Program-made: the position numbers and the translations under genes
Source of the DNA: an uncultured Bacteroidota bacterium
GTDB taxonomy: Bacteria > Bacteroidota > Bacteroidia > Flavobacteriales > Flavobacteriaceae
Length of the DNA stretch: 64,000 nucleotides
NCBI GenBank assembly: GCA_902606525.1
Contig: CACLGW010000004.1
Location: 1 to 64,000, forward strand
Direction of reading: 5' to 3'
Part shown: positions 25,112-30,976 of the stretch, one piece after another
Numbering within the stretch: the stretch's first letter is position 1
How the letters are laid out: each line of letters opens with the position of its first letter
The notes under the pieces: model-generated
The model's input: the letters and a program-made list of their open reading frames with translations, nothing else
Databases searched by the model: none
Told to the model about the DNA's origin: nothing

Positions 25112-25131
25112 CATACTTAAGTTTAAGTATG
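25112..25131. promoter_or_regulatory. Perfect inverted repeat CATACTTAA-GT-TTAAGTATG, operator-like
   Basis: 9-bp perfect arms, 2-nt spacer, in the divergent intergenic region upstream of the HMA/MauE gene. Confidence 0.5.
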
Positions 25132-25209
25132 CTTTTAATTATATATATAATTAATTTTATCTTTTATTACTAAGACAGATATTATTAATTTTATTTCATA
25201 TTAAATTCA

Positions 25210-25920
25210 ATGAAATCAAGATTTCACGTTACAGGAATGACCTGTGTGGCTTGTCAAAAAAAAGTTGCAGAGAAAATAATGGATATTGATCAAGTTAAAG
25301 AAGTTGAGGTCTCACTTGAAACAGGATTAGCTCAAATAAAATCTAATACTCGACTTAATGCTGAAGATATTTCAAACCTTTTGGGTTCCAAATATTCCGT
25401 TGATGAAGCTATTTATTCTTCAGTGAAAACTAAAAACTCTAAATTAAAGCAACTTACTCCTCTATTATTAATTTTAACATATCTAATTGCTGGAACCCTA
25501 TTTTTATCCTATAAAATTAGTGCTACTCCTCAAAGAGGCATGTATATCTTTATGGGGTTGTTTTTTATTGTATTTAGTTTTTTTAAATTCTTAGACTATC
25601 AAGGATTTCCGGATTCATTCAAACGTTACGATCCCTTAGCAAAGAGAATTCCCGGTTATGCAGAAATATACCCCTTTATTGAAACTTTTTTGGGAATAGC
25701 TTACTTAGCAGAATTAAAGTTACCCCTGGTTTTATTGATTACACTAATTATTTTGTCTTTTACAACCTTTGGTGTGATTCGTGTTTTACTTGAAAAATCT
25801 GAAATAGAATGTGCCTGTCTAGGAACTGCAATAAAACTTCCTATGACTGAAGCTACACTAATAGAAAATACTATTATGCTTTCCATGTCCAGCATTCTTT
25901 TAATAGATTATTTTTTTTAA
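25210..25920 (+). CDS. Heavy-metal-associated (HMA) domain fused to MauE/DoxX-like membrane domain
   Basis: N-terminal HMA 'FHVTGMTCVACQKKVAEKI'; C-terminal TM domain with 'RIPGYAEIYPFIETFLGIAYLAEL' and 'IECACLGTAIKLPM' typical of MauE-like proteins. Confidence 0.85.
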   Translation: MKSRFHVTGMTCVACQKKVAEKIMDIDQVKEVEVSLETGLAQIKSNTRLNAEDISNLLGSKYSVDEAIYSSVKTKNSKLKQLTPLLLILTYLIAGTLFLSYKISATPQRGMYIFMGLFFIVFSFFKFLDYQGFPDSFKRYDPLAKRIPGYAEIYPFIETFLGIAYLAELKLPLVLLITLIILSFTTFGVIRVLLEKSEIECACLGTAIKLPMTEATLIENTIMLSMSSILLIDYFF

Positions 25921-25922
25921 AT

Positions 25923-26357
25923 ATGTATATTTACAATATGATTTACAAAAAGTCAGTAAGTTTTTTATTTGCTCTACTAGTCTTTTCGACCCAGACTGGC
26001 TATGCTTTAAATATTCATTATTGTGGTGGCAGGATTGCCGAAATTTCTTTAGCCCATATGTCTACCAATTGTGAGATGGAATCTCCAAAAAATTCCAAAG
26101 ACTCACTTAAAAAAGAATTTTCAAAAAAATCATGCTGTGAAGATGATTTGCTACTATTTCAAAATTATGAATATCAAAAAGAGCATTTAAAAGTTTTCCC
26201 TAAATTGATTGATCTTGATGTAGCGATTCTCCTTCCATTAAATAATATCTATTGTGAAGCTTTTTTCGTTTCTGAAGTTTTTTCAAAGTATAATCCTCCA
26301 CCCCCCAAATCTGACAAACTCTTTTTGTTACAGAAGTCTTTTATTTTTTATGGCTAA
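25923..26357 (+). CDS. Small exported Cys-rich protein (HYC_CC_PP-type)
   Basis: Hydrophobic N-terminus, 'NIHYCGGRIAEISL', 'KKSCCEDDLLLFQ', C-terminal 'NPPPPKSDK'. Confidence 0.8.
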   Translation: MYIYNMIYKKSVSFLFALLVFSTQTGYALNIHYCGGRIAEISLAHMSTNCEMESPKNSKDSLKKEFSKKSCCEDDLLLFQNYEYQKEHLKVFPKLIDLDVAILLPLNNIYCEAFFVSEVFSKYNPPPPKSDKLFLLQKSFIFYG

Positions 26358-26417
26358 ATATCCCTTATTATTTTAATAATTTAATAATAGGAATACTTTA
26401 CTCATAAAAGATAATAA

Positions 26418-28643
26418 TTGAAAAAATATATTTATTTAATAATAGGACTGAACCTTATGCAACTCCTTGCACAAGAGAATCTTGAGGGGATGATAGTTGC
26501 TAAGGACGGTAATCAAACCATTCCATTAATTGGTGCAAATGTCTTTTGGCTAAATTCACAAAAGGGAACTATAACAAATGAAGAAGGGAAATTTTCTCTT
26601 CCCTATTTAGGTCCTAAAGAACGAATTATAATTAGTTATATTGGCTTTAAATCAGATACGCTTAGTATAAAAGAAAATCGTTTTTTAATTCATTTTTTGG
26701 ATGAAACTAATATCGAATCTTTAAATGAAGTAACACTTACTCAAAGGCAAAAAGCAATTCAAAAATCTTACTTTAAGGCGCAAAACATTATAAATGTCAA
26801 CACTGCCGAATTACTAAAAGCTGCATGTTGCAATCTTTCAGAAAGTTTTGAGACCAATCCATCAATAGATGTTAACTTTTCTGATGCGCTTACAGGAACT
26901 AAGCAAATTCGCATGTTGGGACTCACAAGTCCTTACTTGTTAATTACAGAAGAAAATGTTCCCATGGTCCGAGGAGCTTCTCAGGCTTACGGGTTGACGT
27001 TCACTCCTGGCACCTGGATCGAGAGTATTCAGATTACAAAAGGTGCAGGAAGTGTGGCCAATGGTTTCGAAAGTATTGCAGGTCAAATAAATACTGAAAT
27101 CAAAAAGCCTTTTTCAGATATTCCTTTGTTTTTTAATTTATTTACTTCAGCGAATGGTCGCCGAGAAGGAAATTTGCAGGGGAATTGGAAAATTAATAAC
27201 AAATGGAGTAGTGGTTTATTTTTTCATGGAAATCTTAGGACACAAGAGATTGATGGAAATGGGGATACTTTTTTAGATGTTCCAATTTCCCAGCAAACTA
27301 ATATATTAAATCGTTGGCAATATATAGATGCTGAAAAAGGCTGGGTTGGTTTCGCAACGATTCGTTTGATGCAAGACGAAAAACAATTAGGGGCTTTGGG
27401 TTTTAATCTTCAAGAGGTTACCAATCAAAATCTTTGGGGGAGTGAGATAAATTCAAATAGGATTGACGCTTCATTAAAAATTGGATATGTTTTCCCAGAA
27501 TTACCTTATCAGAGCTTTGGTTTTCAATCAGCCTTCAGTAATCATATACAAGATTCATTTTATGGTTTTAGAATTTACGATATTGATCATGAAAGTCTAT
27601 ATACTAATCTATTATTTAACTCTATTATTGGAAATACCAATAATAAATTTAAATTAGGAATAAACTTTTCGTATGACAGCTATTCAGAAATTGTAGATAC
27701 TTTTTACTTTAATAGAATTGATCGTTCTTTAGGAAGTTTTTTTGAGTACAGTTATGACAGTTTGGAAAACTTTTCCTTTGTAGCTGGGATTCGAATAGAT
27801 ATTCATAATCATTTGGGAACTTTTCTTACACCACGTTTAAATCTTAGATATTCACCTAAGGAAAATACCATCATTCGATTTTCAGTTGGTAGCGGACGAA
27901 AAGCAGCTAATATTTTTGCAGAAAATCAAAGCCTTTTTGGAACCAACCGTCAGATCAACATCTATAAAAACGGGGGATCTATTTATAGTTTAAATCCTGA
28001 AAAGGCATGGAATTATGGTGCAAGTATACGCCAGATTTTTAATCTTTTTGGAAGAGGCGGAGACATTACTGCGGATTATTATATTACTAATTTCATAGAC
28101 CAAGTGGTAGTAGATTGGGAAAAGGAAGGTCAAATTTCGTTTTATAATTTGGAGGGTGTAAGTCGTGCAAATAGTTTTCAACTTTCAATTGATTACAATC
28201 CTTTAAAAGCAATTAATCTTCGTTTTGCATATAAAAATTATGATGTTCAAACTACTTACAATTCAGGACTTTCACAACGACCTTTACAGCCACAAAACAG
28301 ATTTTTTGCAAATTTAGCATGGGAATCAGTCCGAAATGTTAAGCTAGGTCAGTGGCGTTGGGATTTGACTTATCATGCTTTAGGAAAACAGCGTTTGGTT
28401 AATACTCAAAGAGATATAGTTGGCAGTTATGCTTCAGCATATGGTTTGTGGAATACTCAATTAACTCGAGCTTTTACGGGCTCTTTTGAGCTATATGCAG
28501 GTGTTGAAAATCTTGGAGATTACAAACAGTTAAATCCTATTATAGGGTCAGAAGATCCTTTTGGGATCAATTTTGATACTGCACAGATCTATGCTCCCAT
28601 TTTCGGAAGAATGCTTTATGCTGGTTTACGTTGGAATTTATAA
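26418..28643 (+). CDS. TonB-dependent receptor (CarboxypepD-reg-like N-domain, plug and barrel)
   Basis: TTG start, signal peptide, 'NEEGKFSLPYLGPKERIIISYIGFKSD', plug 'IRMLGLTSPYLLITEENVPMVRG...ITKGAGSVANGFESIAGQINTE', C-terminal barrel ending 'MLYAGLRWNL'. Confidence 0.93.
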   Translation: MKKYIYLIIGLNLMQLLAQENLEGMIVAKDGNQTIPLIGANVFWLNSQKGTITNEEGKFSLPYLGPKERIIISYIGFKSDTLSIKENRFLIHFLDETNIESLNEVTLTQRQKAIQKSYFKAQNIINVNTAELLKAACCNLSESFETNPSIDVNFSDALTGTKQIRMLGLTSPYLLITEENVPMVRGASQAYGLTFTPGTWIESIQITKGAGSVANGFESIAGQINTEIKKPFSDIPLFFNLFTSANGRREGNLQGNWKINNKWSSGLFFHGNLRTQEIDGNGDTFLDVPISQQTNILNRWQYIDAEKGWVGFATIRLMQDEKQLGALGFNLQEVTNQNLWGSEINSNRIDASLKIGYVFPELPYQSFGFQSAFSNHIQDSFYGFRIYDIDHESLYTNLLFNSIIGNTNNKFKLGINFSYDSYSEIVDTFYFNRIDRSLGSFFEYSYDSLENFSFVAGIRIDIHNHLGTFLTPRLNLRYSPKENTIIRFSVGSGRKAANIFAENQSLFGTNRQINIYKNGGSIYSLNPEKAWNYGASIRQIFNLFGRGGDITADYYITNFIDQVVVDWEKEGQISFYNLEGVSRANSFQLSIDYNPLKAINLRFAYKNYDVQTTYNSGLSQRPLQPQNRFFANLAWESVRNVKLGQWRWDLTYHALGKQRLVNTQRDIVGSYASAYGLWNTQLTRAFTGSFELYAGVENLGDYKQLNPIIGSEDPFGINFDTAQIYAPIFGRMLYAGLRWNL

Positions 28644-28665
28644 TTATCTTTAATCTAAAAATTTT

Positions 28666-29001
28666 ATGAAACCTTTCTACCTGATATTTTTTTTAATTGT
28701 ACCATTAGCAATTAGCGCTCAAAATAAAAAGAATGAAAAAGCTAGCTTTGAAGTAATTGGAAACTGTGAAATTTGTAAAAAGCGTATTGAAAAAGCTGCT
28801 TTATCAAAACAAGGTGTTAAGTACGCTAATTGGGATATTCCCTCAAATCTAATTTCTGTAATCTATAATTCTAAAAAAATTTCTTTAAAAAATGTGCAAG
28901 CTGCGATAGCATCTGTTGGGCATGACACTCCTATGTTTAAAGCTCTTGATTCTGTTTATAAAGAACTTCCAATGTGCTGTCTTTACAAACGGACTGATTA
29001 A
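28666..29001 (+). CDS. Secreted heavy-metal-associated (HMA) domain protein with C-terminal CC motif
   Basis: Signal peptide, 'EVIGNCEICKKRIEKAAL' HMA motif, C-terminal 'ELPMCCLYKRTD'. Confidence 0.85.
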   Translation: MKPFYLIFFLIVPLAISAQNKKNEKASFEVIGNCEICKKRIEKAALSKQGVKYANWDIPSNLISVIYNSKKISLKNVQAAIASVGHDTPMFKALDSVYKELPMCCLYKRTD

Positions 29002-29003
29002 TT

Positions 29004-29033
29004 AAAAAAGGCTCCGAATTTGGAGCCTTTTTT
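29004..29033. terminator. Bidirectional intrinsic terminator between convergent HMA gene and groEL
   Basis: AAAAAAGGCTCC-gaattt-GGAGCCTTTTTT hairpin with A/T tracts on both sides. Confidence 0.85.
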
Positions 29034-29046
29034 ATTATAAAAATTC

Positions 29047-30976
<1,930 letters not shown>

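Follow-up and report, generated by a model that had tools for sequence, protein, structure and literature searches.

A probable copper-acquisition operon of a marine flavobacterium with a predicted copper-sensing leader peptide

A four-gene operon carried by a marine flavobacterium probably serves, in our reading, for copper acquisition and probably includes a post-transcriptional gauge of its own for the metal; the metal, the arrest and the sign of the response are elements that we infer from sequence. Little is understood of copper import, particularly in Bacteroidota. If this reading is true, a widespread family named from its motifs alone (HYC_CC_PP) gains a function, a substrate can be assigned to a single-copy receptor that most sampled Flavobacteriales genomes carry, and the pairing of a fixed peptide ruler with a stem at a stop codon leads to testable predictions on how a ribosome might read periplasmic copper.

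The operon spans positions 25210-29001 of the window, by which we mean the whole 64,000-nucleotide stretch of DNA that was analysed. Ninety-eight bases (25112-25209) precede the first ORF, and a terminator-like repeat lies between the operon and a convergent groEL gene, common to both (Table 1). The host genome is a metagenome-assembled genome (MAG), 57% complete, from a marine Flavobacteriaceae genus, and the named records closest to it are MAGs of uncultured Flavobacteriaceae, some of them labelled MS024-2A. A preliminary description of the sequence had reported four co-directional genes with clustered cysteines and neither a P1B ATPase nor a CusA gene adjoining them. Our ORF, Pfam and profile checks confirmed the ORFs, their order and the cysteine motifs, and the adjoining genes were likewise as described. 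The motifs are not a matter of chance, since they are invariant or nearly so in alignments of 28 to 31 relatives. A palindrome upstream of the first ORF (CATACTTAAGTTTAAGTATG, 25112-25131) was considered as a conserved operator and rejected; its exact sequence is not kept in the genus.

Table 1. Features of the operon and its flanks, in positions of the window.
Feature	Positions	Strand	Basis
HMA+MauE fusion ORF	25210-25920	+	Pfam
HYC_CC_PP small exported protein ORF	25923-26357	+	NF047658 profile
RNA stem between the 3' end of HYC (final codons and stop) and the sequence immediately upstream of the TBDR start	26341-26414	+	folding
TonB receptor (TBDR), TTG start	26418-28643	+	Pfam
Secreted single HMA-domain protein	28666-29001	+	profile search, alignment, fusions
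Terminator-like inverted repeat, GGCTCC...GGAGCC and T run	29010-29033	.	read from sequence

We examined 80 order-level loci around HYC_CC_PP genes (hereafter HYC), scoring them with profiles built from the proteins of this locus. The same receptor family and a secreted HMA protein lay downstream of 39 of the 83 HYC genes, the order being HYC-TBDR-HMA in Flavobacteriaceae, with the two downstream genes exchanged (HYC-HMA-TBDR) in other families. HYC genes also headed 31 CusA/OEP/CusB efflux operons (ACR_tran, OEP and a CusB-like HlyD_D23) and four MbnP/MauG operons. When operon type is mapped on the HYC tree, parsimony requires nine changes, and well-supported branches force two to three. The preliminary description had treated all four genes as one set, to be judged by their co-occurrence across genomes. 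That co-occurrence holds for a HYC-TBDR-HMA core, which is conserved, while the HMA-MauE gene is more loosely attached and varies in position. The proposal that HYC_CC_PP is itself a component of the metal pathway found no support in the comparison, as the family heads efflux and MbnP/MauG operons too.

The receptor family occurred in 168 of 248 genomes at order level and in 77 of 297 at phylum level, with a single copy in nearly all of them. A second set of 40 receptor loci from across Bacteroidota, drawn largely from families that the first set had not covered, was read by eye from tables. In 37 of these loci, the gene directly upstream of the receptor encodes a small exported protein with Cys residues and, in nearly every case, a PP motif at its end. 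When control genes were searched by rule, 4 of 566 had an ORF of this kind upstream, and in two of those four cases the ORF preceded the same receptor family. Within the genus of the host, the receptor was present in 32 of 38 genomes; in the 20 loci that were read, HYC preceded the receptor every time, the secreted HMA protein was found in 19, and HMA-MauE was recognized by motif in 15 (as it was in some other families). Judged from sequence, the gene set is thus most likely a conserved marine flavobacterial module for the uptake and handling of copper, and the earlier preference for uptake over efflux is supported.

The genomes themselves bear on the metal and on its direction. Within the same genus, COX1, of the haem-copper oxidase, was found in 33 of 38 genomes, and no P1B ATPase scored above the cut-off in these 38 incomplete genomes; a single sub-threshold match, in one bin, adjoined a COX1 gene. 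All seven genomes that are at least 90% complete had COX1, and none had a P1B match. Since COX1 is present and a P1B ATPase essentially absent, the genus needs copper and lacks the usual exporter, which fits acquisition. Copper, and an import direction, are most likely. The neighbours of CruR and CutF, two leader systems discussed below, are of the same kinds as those of the HYC family (RND efflux and MbnP/MauG types) (PMC9426467, PMC9973294).

Pfam assigns CarboxypepD_reg_2 and TonB Plug domains to the receptor, whose ACC motif (residues 136-138) falls in the plug; in a 29-member alignment the plug CC (C137/C138, LLKAACCNLSESFETNPS) was invariant or nearly so. An AlphaFold2 model (pLDDT 82) adopts the TBDR fold. 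A structural search with this model did not single out copper receptors, placing siderophore and B12 receptors first and OprC at rank 32, where OprC (6z8y_B) aligned with TM-scores of 0.65/0.74; the fold gave no pointer to the substrate. The secreted HMA protein, which has a signal peptide by inspection and CEIC and MCC motifs, matched the Pfam HMA model weakly (19.9 bits against a cut-off of 24.8) and gave clear profile matches to Cu-ATPase HMA domains, CopZ and MerP, of which Cu-ATPase/CopZ were nearest. C34, C37, C104 and C105 are invariant or nearly so among its relatives, and it is likely a periplasmic copper carrier. An HMA domain is fused to the N terminus of the receptor in family f5, which we tentatively call Weeksellaceae-like from its genome features, and in several others, in one or two copies that each have a CxxC and a trailing CC. 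Such fusions tie the secreted HMA protein to the receptor, and their N-terminal position places the HMA domain on the periplasmic side of the plug. Together with the invariant plug CC, they support a putative hand-over from receptor to HMA protein.

The first gene of the operon joins an HMA domain (PF00403, E 2.8e-9) to a MauE domain (PF07291, E 1.9e-16). Its cysteines form a CVAC motif (CxxC) in the HMA part and a CAC motif in a CxCLG loop (CACLG), and C12, C15, C201, C203, M111, M115, M212, M223 and M226 were invariant in a 10-member alignment. The AlphaFold2 model (mean pLDDT 82) has five transmembrane helices (78-102, 107-128, 150-167, 171-194 and 212-235), and a structural search with it returned no known fold for the MauE part, the only match being the HMA domain. 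By the positive-inside rule, the distribution of charges would put both HMA and CxC on the cytoplasmic side of the membrane. This is likely an inner-membrane copper-handling protein; our preferred guess is a MerT-like movement of copper at that membrane, and a thiol-redox role may be the alternative. Against the MerTP profile the locus protein scored 34.9 bits, from the HMA part alone, with a cut-off of 180.

The second gene product belongs to the HYC_CC_PP family (NF047658, 60.6 bits; curated cut-off 28). It has 144 residues and, by inspection of its hydrophobic N terminus, a signal peptide; translation may in fact begin at a second in-frame ATG, at 25938. HYC lies at residues 32-34, the (S)CC at 71-72 and PPPP at about 124-128, ending 16 residues short of the C terminus. 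H32, C34 and C72 are invariant or nearly so, and C71 is conserved in more than 90% of relatives. Beyond the signal peptide, conservation in the family is limited to HxC, one more Cys, CC, PP and the final residues, which beside the stop codon read FLI or FYG. The distance from HxC to CC varies from 18 to 72 residues. From CC to PP it is mostly 52 to 53 in the order-level set, and it was exactly 52 in 14 of 20 proteins from the genus. PP fell within the last 25 residues of 71 of 83 HYC proteins, versus 3 of 9369 positions elsewhere. Weeksellaceae-like leaders end in IWQPPKxG. Our literature search found no study of the family and no expression, arrest or metal data on any member.

HYC genes were followed by a co-directional gene in 80 of 82 cases, and the gap after them had a median of 80 nt versus 4 nt for the next gap (order-level loci, p about 4e-19). 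In the locus this gap is 60 nt. Folded alone from the stop codon it scored no better than shuffles (z of +1.4), and we set aside the idea of an unstructured junction once the last HYC codons were included and a stem appeared (minimum free energy [MFE] -16.5 kcal/mol, z of -2.4, 3 of 200 shuffles as good). The outer stem pairs 26341-26353 with 26402-26414, and the inner stem begins at the HYC stop codon (26355-26357). In the genus, the stem reaches back into the last HYC codons, where UUUUUUAUG pairs with CAUAAAAAA, and it overlies the A-rich stretch ahead of the receptor start. A comparable stem was found by MFE in 20 of 20 loci of the genus; the same criterion, applied with the coding tail, was passed by 43% of controls and is therefore too permissive, so we relied on a stricter count of stop-anchored stems. 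To be counted, a stem had to have 8 bp or more, start no further than 2 nt from the HYC stop and pair with the half of the gap nearer the next gene. Such stems occurred in 57.5% of HYC gaps versus 4.3% of control gaps and 6.6% of dinucleotide shuffles, figures that carry rough ORF calling in the controls, related sequences that are not independent of one another and a very A+T-rich composition throughout. In the second set, 20 of 35 receptor leaders had such a stem as well. Junction folding energies lay below those of control gaps in the genus (p 3e-5), class A (2e-4) and class B (3e-7). In Flavobacterium, 7 of 13 pairs had changes on both sides, a level of compensation reached by 0 of 500 shuffles; covariation of the stem within the host genus was weak in a MAFFT alignment. 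An Rfam search of the locus region and nine relatives returned no known RNA family at the junction.

We propose the following mechanism. Copper, either free or as a chelate, would cross the outer membrane through the TonB receptor and be picked up at the plug side, in the periplasm, by the secreted HMA protein; HMA-MauE would handle it at the inner membrane, with the haem-copper oxidase as its final destination. The HYC product would be a nascent exported leader rather than a transport station. Its Cys/His site would stand at the periplasmic side of the Sec channel while PP, or the stop codon about 15 codons later, occupies the ribosome centre; copper binding to the nascent chain would alter ribosome dwell time, and ribosome position would set whether the stop-anchored stem closes over the receptor start region. 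Because a ribosome finishing HYC must melt the stem, its position could gate the receptor start. PP lies about 45 nt short of the stem, too far for a ribosome paused there to melt it directly, so the pause would be nearer the stop or the coupling indirect, by a route such as Rho, as in CruR. As the second ORF, behind HMA-MauE, HYC could control the receptor and the HMA protein and not HMA-MauE, and since the family precedes importers and exporters alike, the sign of the response is not predictable from sequence. For the phylum as a whole, we see about an even chance that HYC_CC_PP proteins, together with related leaders of Bacteroidota, form a class of nascent exported peptides that sense copper and have a 52/15 ruler of their own (Cys site to PP 52, PP to end 15), acting through a stop-codon stem, repeatedly recruited to importers, exporters and MbnP/MauG genes and taking their sign from local architecture.

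A cis-acting, copper-sensing leader is the better reading of HYC because of its importer, efflux and MbnP contexts, its fixed Cys-to-PP spacing and its stop-anchored stem. The signal peptide, the conserved H, Y and Cys residues and the steady company of copper genes would also suit an ordinary mature periplasmic copper-binding protein (a chaperone, buffer or partner), with a stem that merely couples translation. We think this rather unlikely, since the sequence between the motifs is unconserved while their spacing is fixed, PP is confined to the C terminus, the residues beside the stop are conserved, and the stem starts at the stop codon of a family that importer and exporter operons have in common.

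It is unlikely, too, that the stem is a constitutive translational-coupling or mRNA-stability element insensitive to metal, with transcription controlled elsewhere. The melting of stems by terminating ribosomes is a general coupling device, and the upstream palindrome could be an operator, but such an element leaves the fixed spacing, the C-terminal PP and the concentration in copper-related operons unexplained. Less probable again is a receptor for a soft metal other than copper, or for a metallophore (Zn, Fe, Hg), with a leader that senses that metal. Zn/Cd and Hg systems have HMA domains too, MerTP/ZntA profiles score here, and the ranking of siderophore and B12 receptors above OprC points the same way; against this stand the CusA/CusB-like and MbnP/MauG-like operons of the same leader family, an HMA profile nearest to Cu-ATPase/CopZ, and a haem-copper oxidase kept by the genus.

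The copper-sensing leader that we favor has its closest parallel in CruR (DUF2946), which precedes crtA/bfrG in Bordetella pertussis: both are small exported Cys proteins with a C-terminal PP, followed by a long gap and a TonB copper importer (PMC9426467, PMC12914433). CruR homologues also head MbnPH and PcuAC operons, and their Cys-motif-to-PP spacing is fixed, at 45 as against 52. The likeness appears to be one of analogy. No PF11162 (DUF2946) match at E<=1 was found in 31 HYC members; CruR has CXXC and RAPP where HYC has CC/HxC and PP(PP); PP lies 3 residues from the end in CruR and 15 to 16 in HYC; and the HYC operon has HMA partners where the CruR operon has its third gene. The Weeksellaceae-like leaders come nearer to CruR geometry. 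A recent survey found RAPP/RGPP leader ORFs of copper genes missing in Bacteroidota (PMC12992588).

CutF, from cutFOG of Rhodobacter capsulatus, is likewise a Sec-exported nascent copper sensor with a C-terminal proline motif, with a 45-residue spacing and a stem that occludes the next start, whereas the HYC stem starts at the stop codon. According to the CutF report (PMC9973294), a distance of about 45 residues lets the metal site sit in the mouth of SecY, on the periplasmic side, when the proline motif is at the ribosome centre, and many CutF-like proteins with TonB/OEP neighbours were counted in Bacteroidota; the name HYC_CC_PP was not encountered in the parts of it consulted. As CutF-like proteins are defined there, the locus protein has fewer than 150 residues, a signal peptide by inspection, a Cys site and a same-strand gene within 1000 nt, but its PPPP, ending 16 residues before the C terminus, narrowly misses the last 15.

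Among copper receptors, OprC and CrtA have the TonB-dependent fold in common with the locus receptor, which differs in having an invariant plug CC in place of the CxxxM-HxM site of OprC and a CarboxypepD_reg_2 domain (or, in other families, HMA) at its N terminus. Searches of the receptor found no OprC sequence match and no OprC-type NCBIfam match. An OprC-like receptor of Bizionia argentinensis has already been proposed as a flavobacterial copper receptor, and its described CxxxM-HxM motif and context set it apart from ours (PMC11213822). MerP/MerT(P) mercury uptake also combines a periplasmic HMA protein with an inner-membrane Cys protein bearing HMA, while the locus has MauE (PF07291) in place of MerT, no adjoining mer genes and a TBDR. 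The system would work like CruR-CrtA and CutF without DUF2946 homology, and since the CutF survey had already counted such proteins in Bacteroidota, the general idea is published; what appears to be new is the identification of HYC_CC_PP with this leader class, the 52/15 ruler, the stop-anchored stem, the fusions of HMA to the TBDR and a receptor family that is single-copy.

Upstream of the gene for the HMA-MauE fusion lies a perfect palindrome with 9-bp arms, a possible operator, which occurs once within the window and which congeners keep only in part, as CTTAARTTTAA-like sequences. At its other end the operon adjoins groEL/groES, as it does in many Flavobacteriaceae, the neighbourhood being conserved across genera. 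P1B metal ATPases are nearly absent from the 38 genomes of the window's own marine flavobacterial genus; the only match, at G263:C31, is sub-threshold and, next to COX1, possibly a contaminant.

Features and loci (L-numbers, loci of related Bacteroidota genomes)
Feature	Source	Position
Palindrome CATACTTAAGTTTAAGTATG	window	25112-25131
groEL/groES	window	29047-30976
Operon beside groEL/groES	L035, L037, L040, L044, L049, L063, L064, L065, L069	
TonB receptor with fused N-terminal HMA	L217	3305-5965
TonB receptor with fused N-terminal HMA	L219	4024-6693
TonB receptor with fused N-terminal HMA	L230, L237, L241	
Short ORF, ArsR-like	L231	3299-3610
Second kind of leader, IWQPP end	L053	8056-8376

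HYC leaders, the proposed copper-sensing ORFs, also stand directly upstream of MbnP and MauG-like di-haem genes (L066, L080, L083 and L090), in copper-related operons outside Proteobacteria. One receptor locus (L231) is without a Cys/PP leader and instead carries the short ORF just 5' of its HMA gene. The L053 leader precedes a more distant TonB receptor, and a HYC-CusA operon stands back to back with this pair.

Some fused receptors have two HMA copies. Downstream of the leaders of family f5 (L217-L222), the receptor's HMA is either fused or separate. These leaders end in IWQPPKxG, placing PP three residues from the C-terminus and about 44 residues beyond the last Cys, and come near the geometry of CruR, the DUF2946 copper-sensing leader of Bordetella pertussis (spacing 45).
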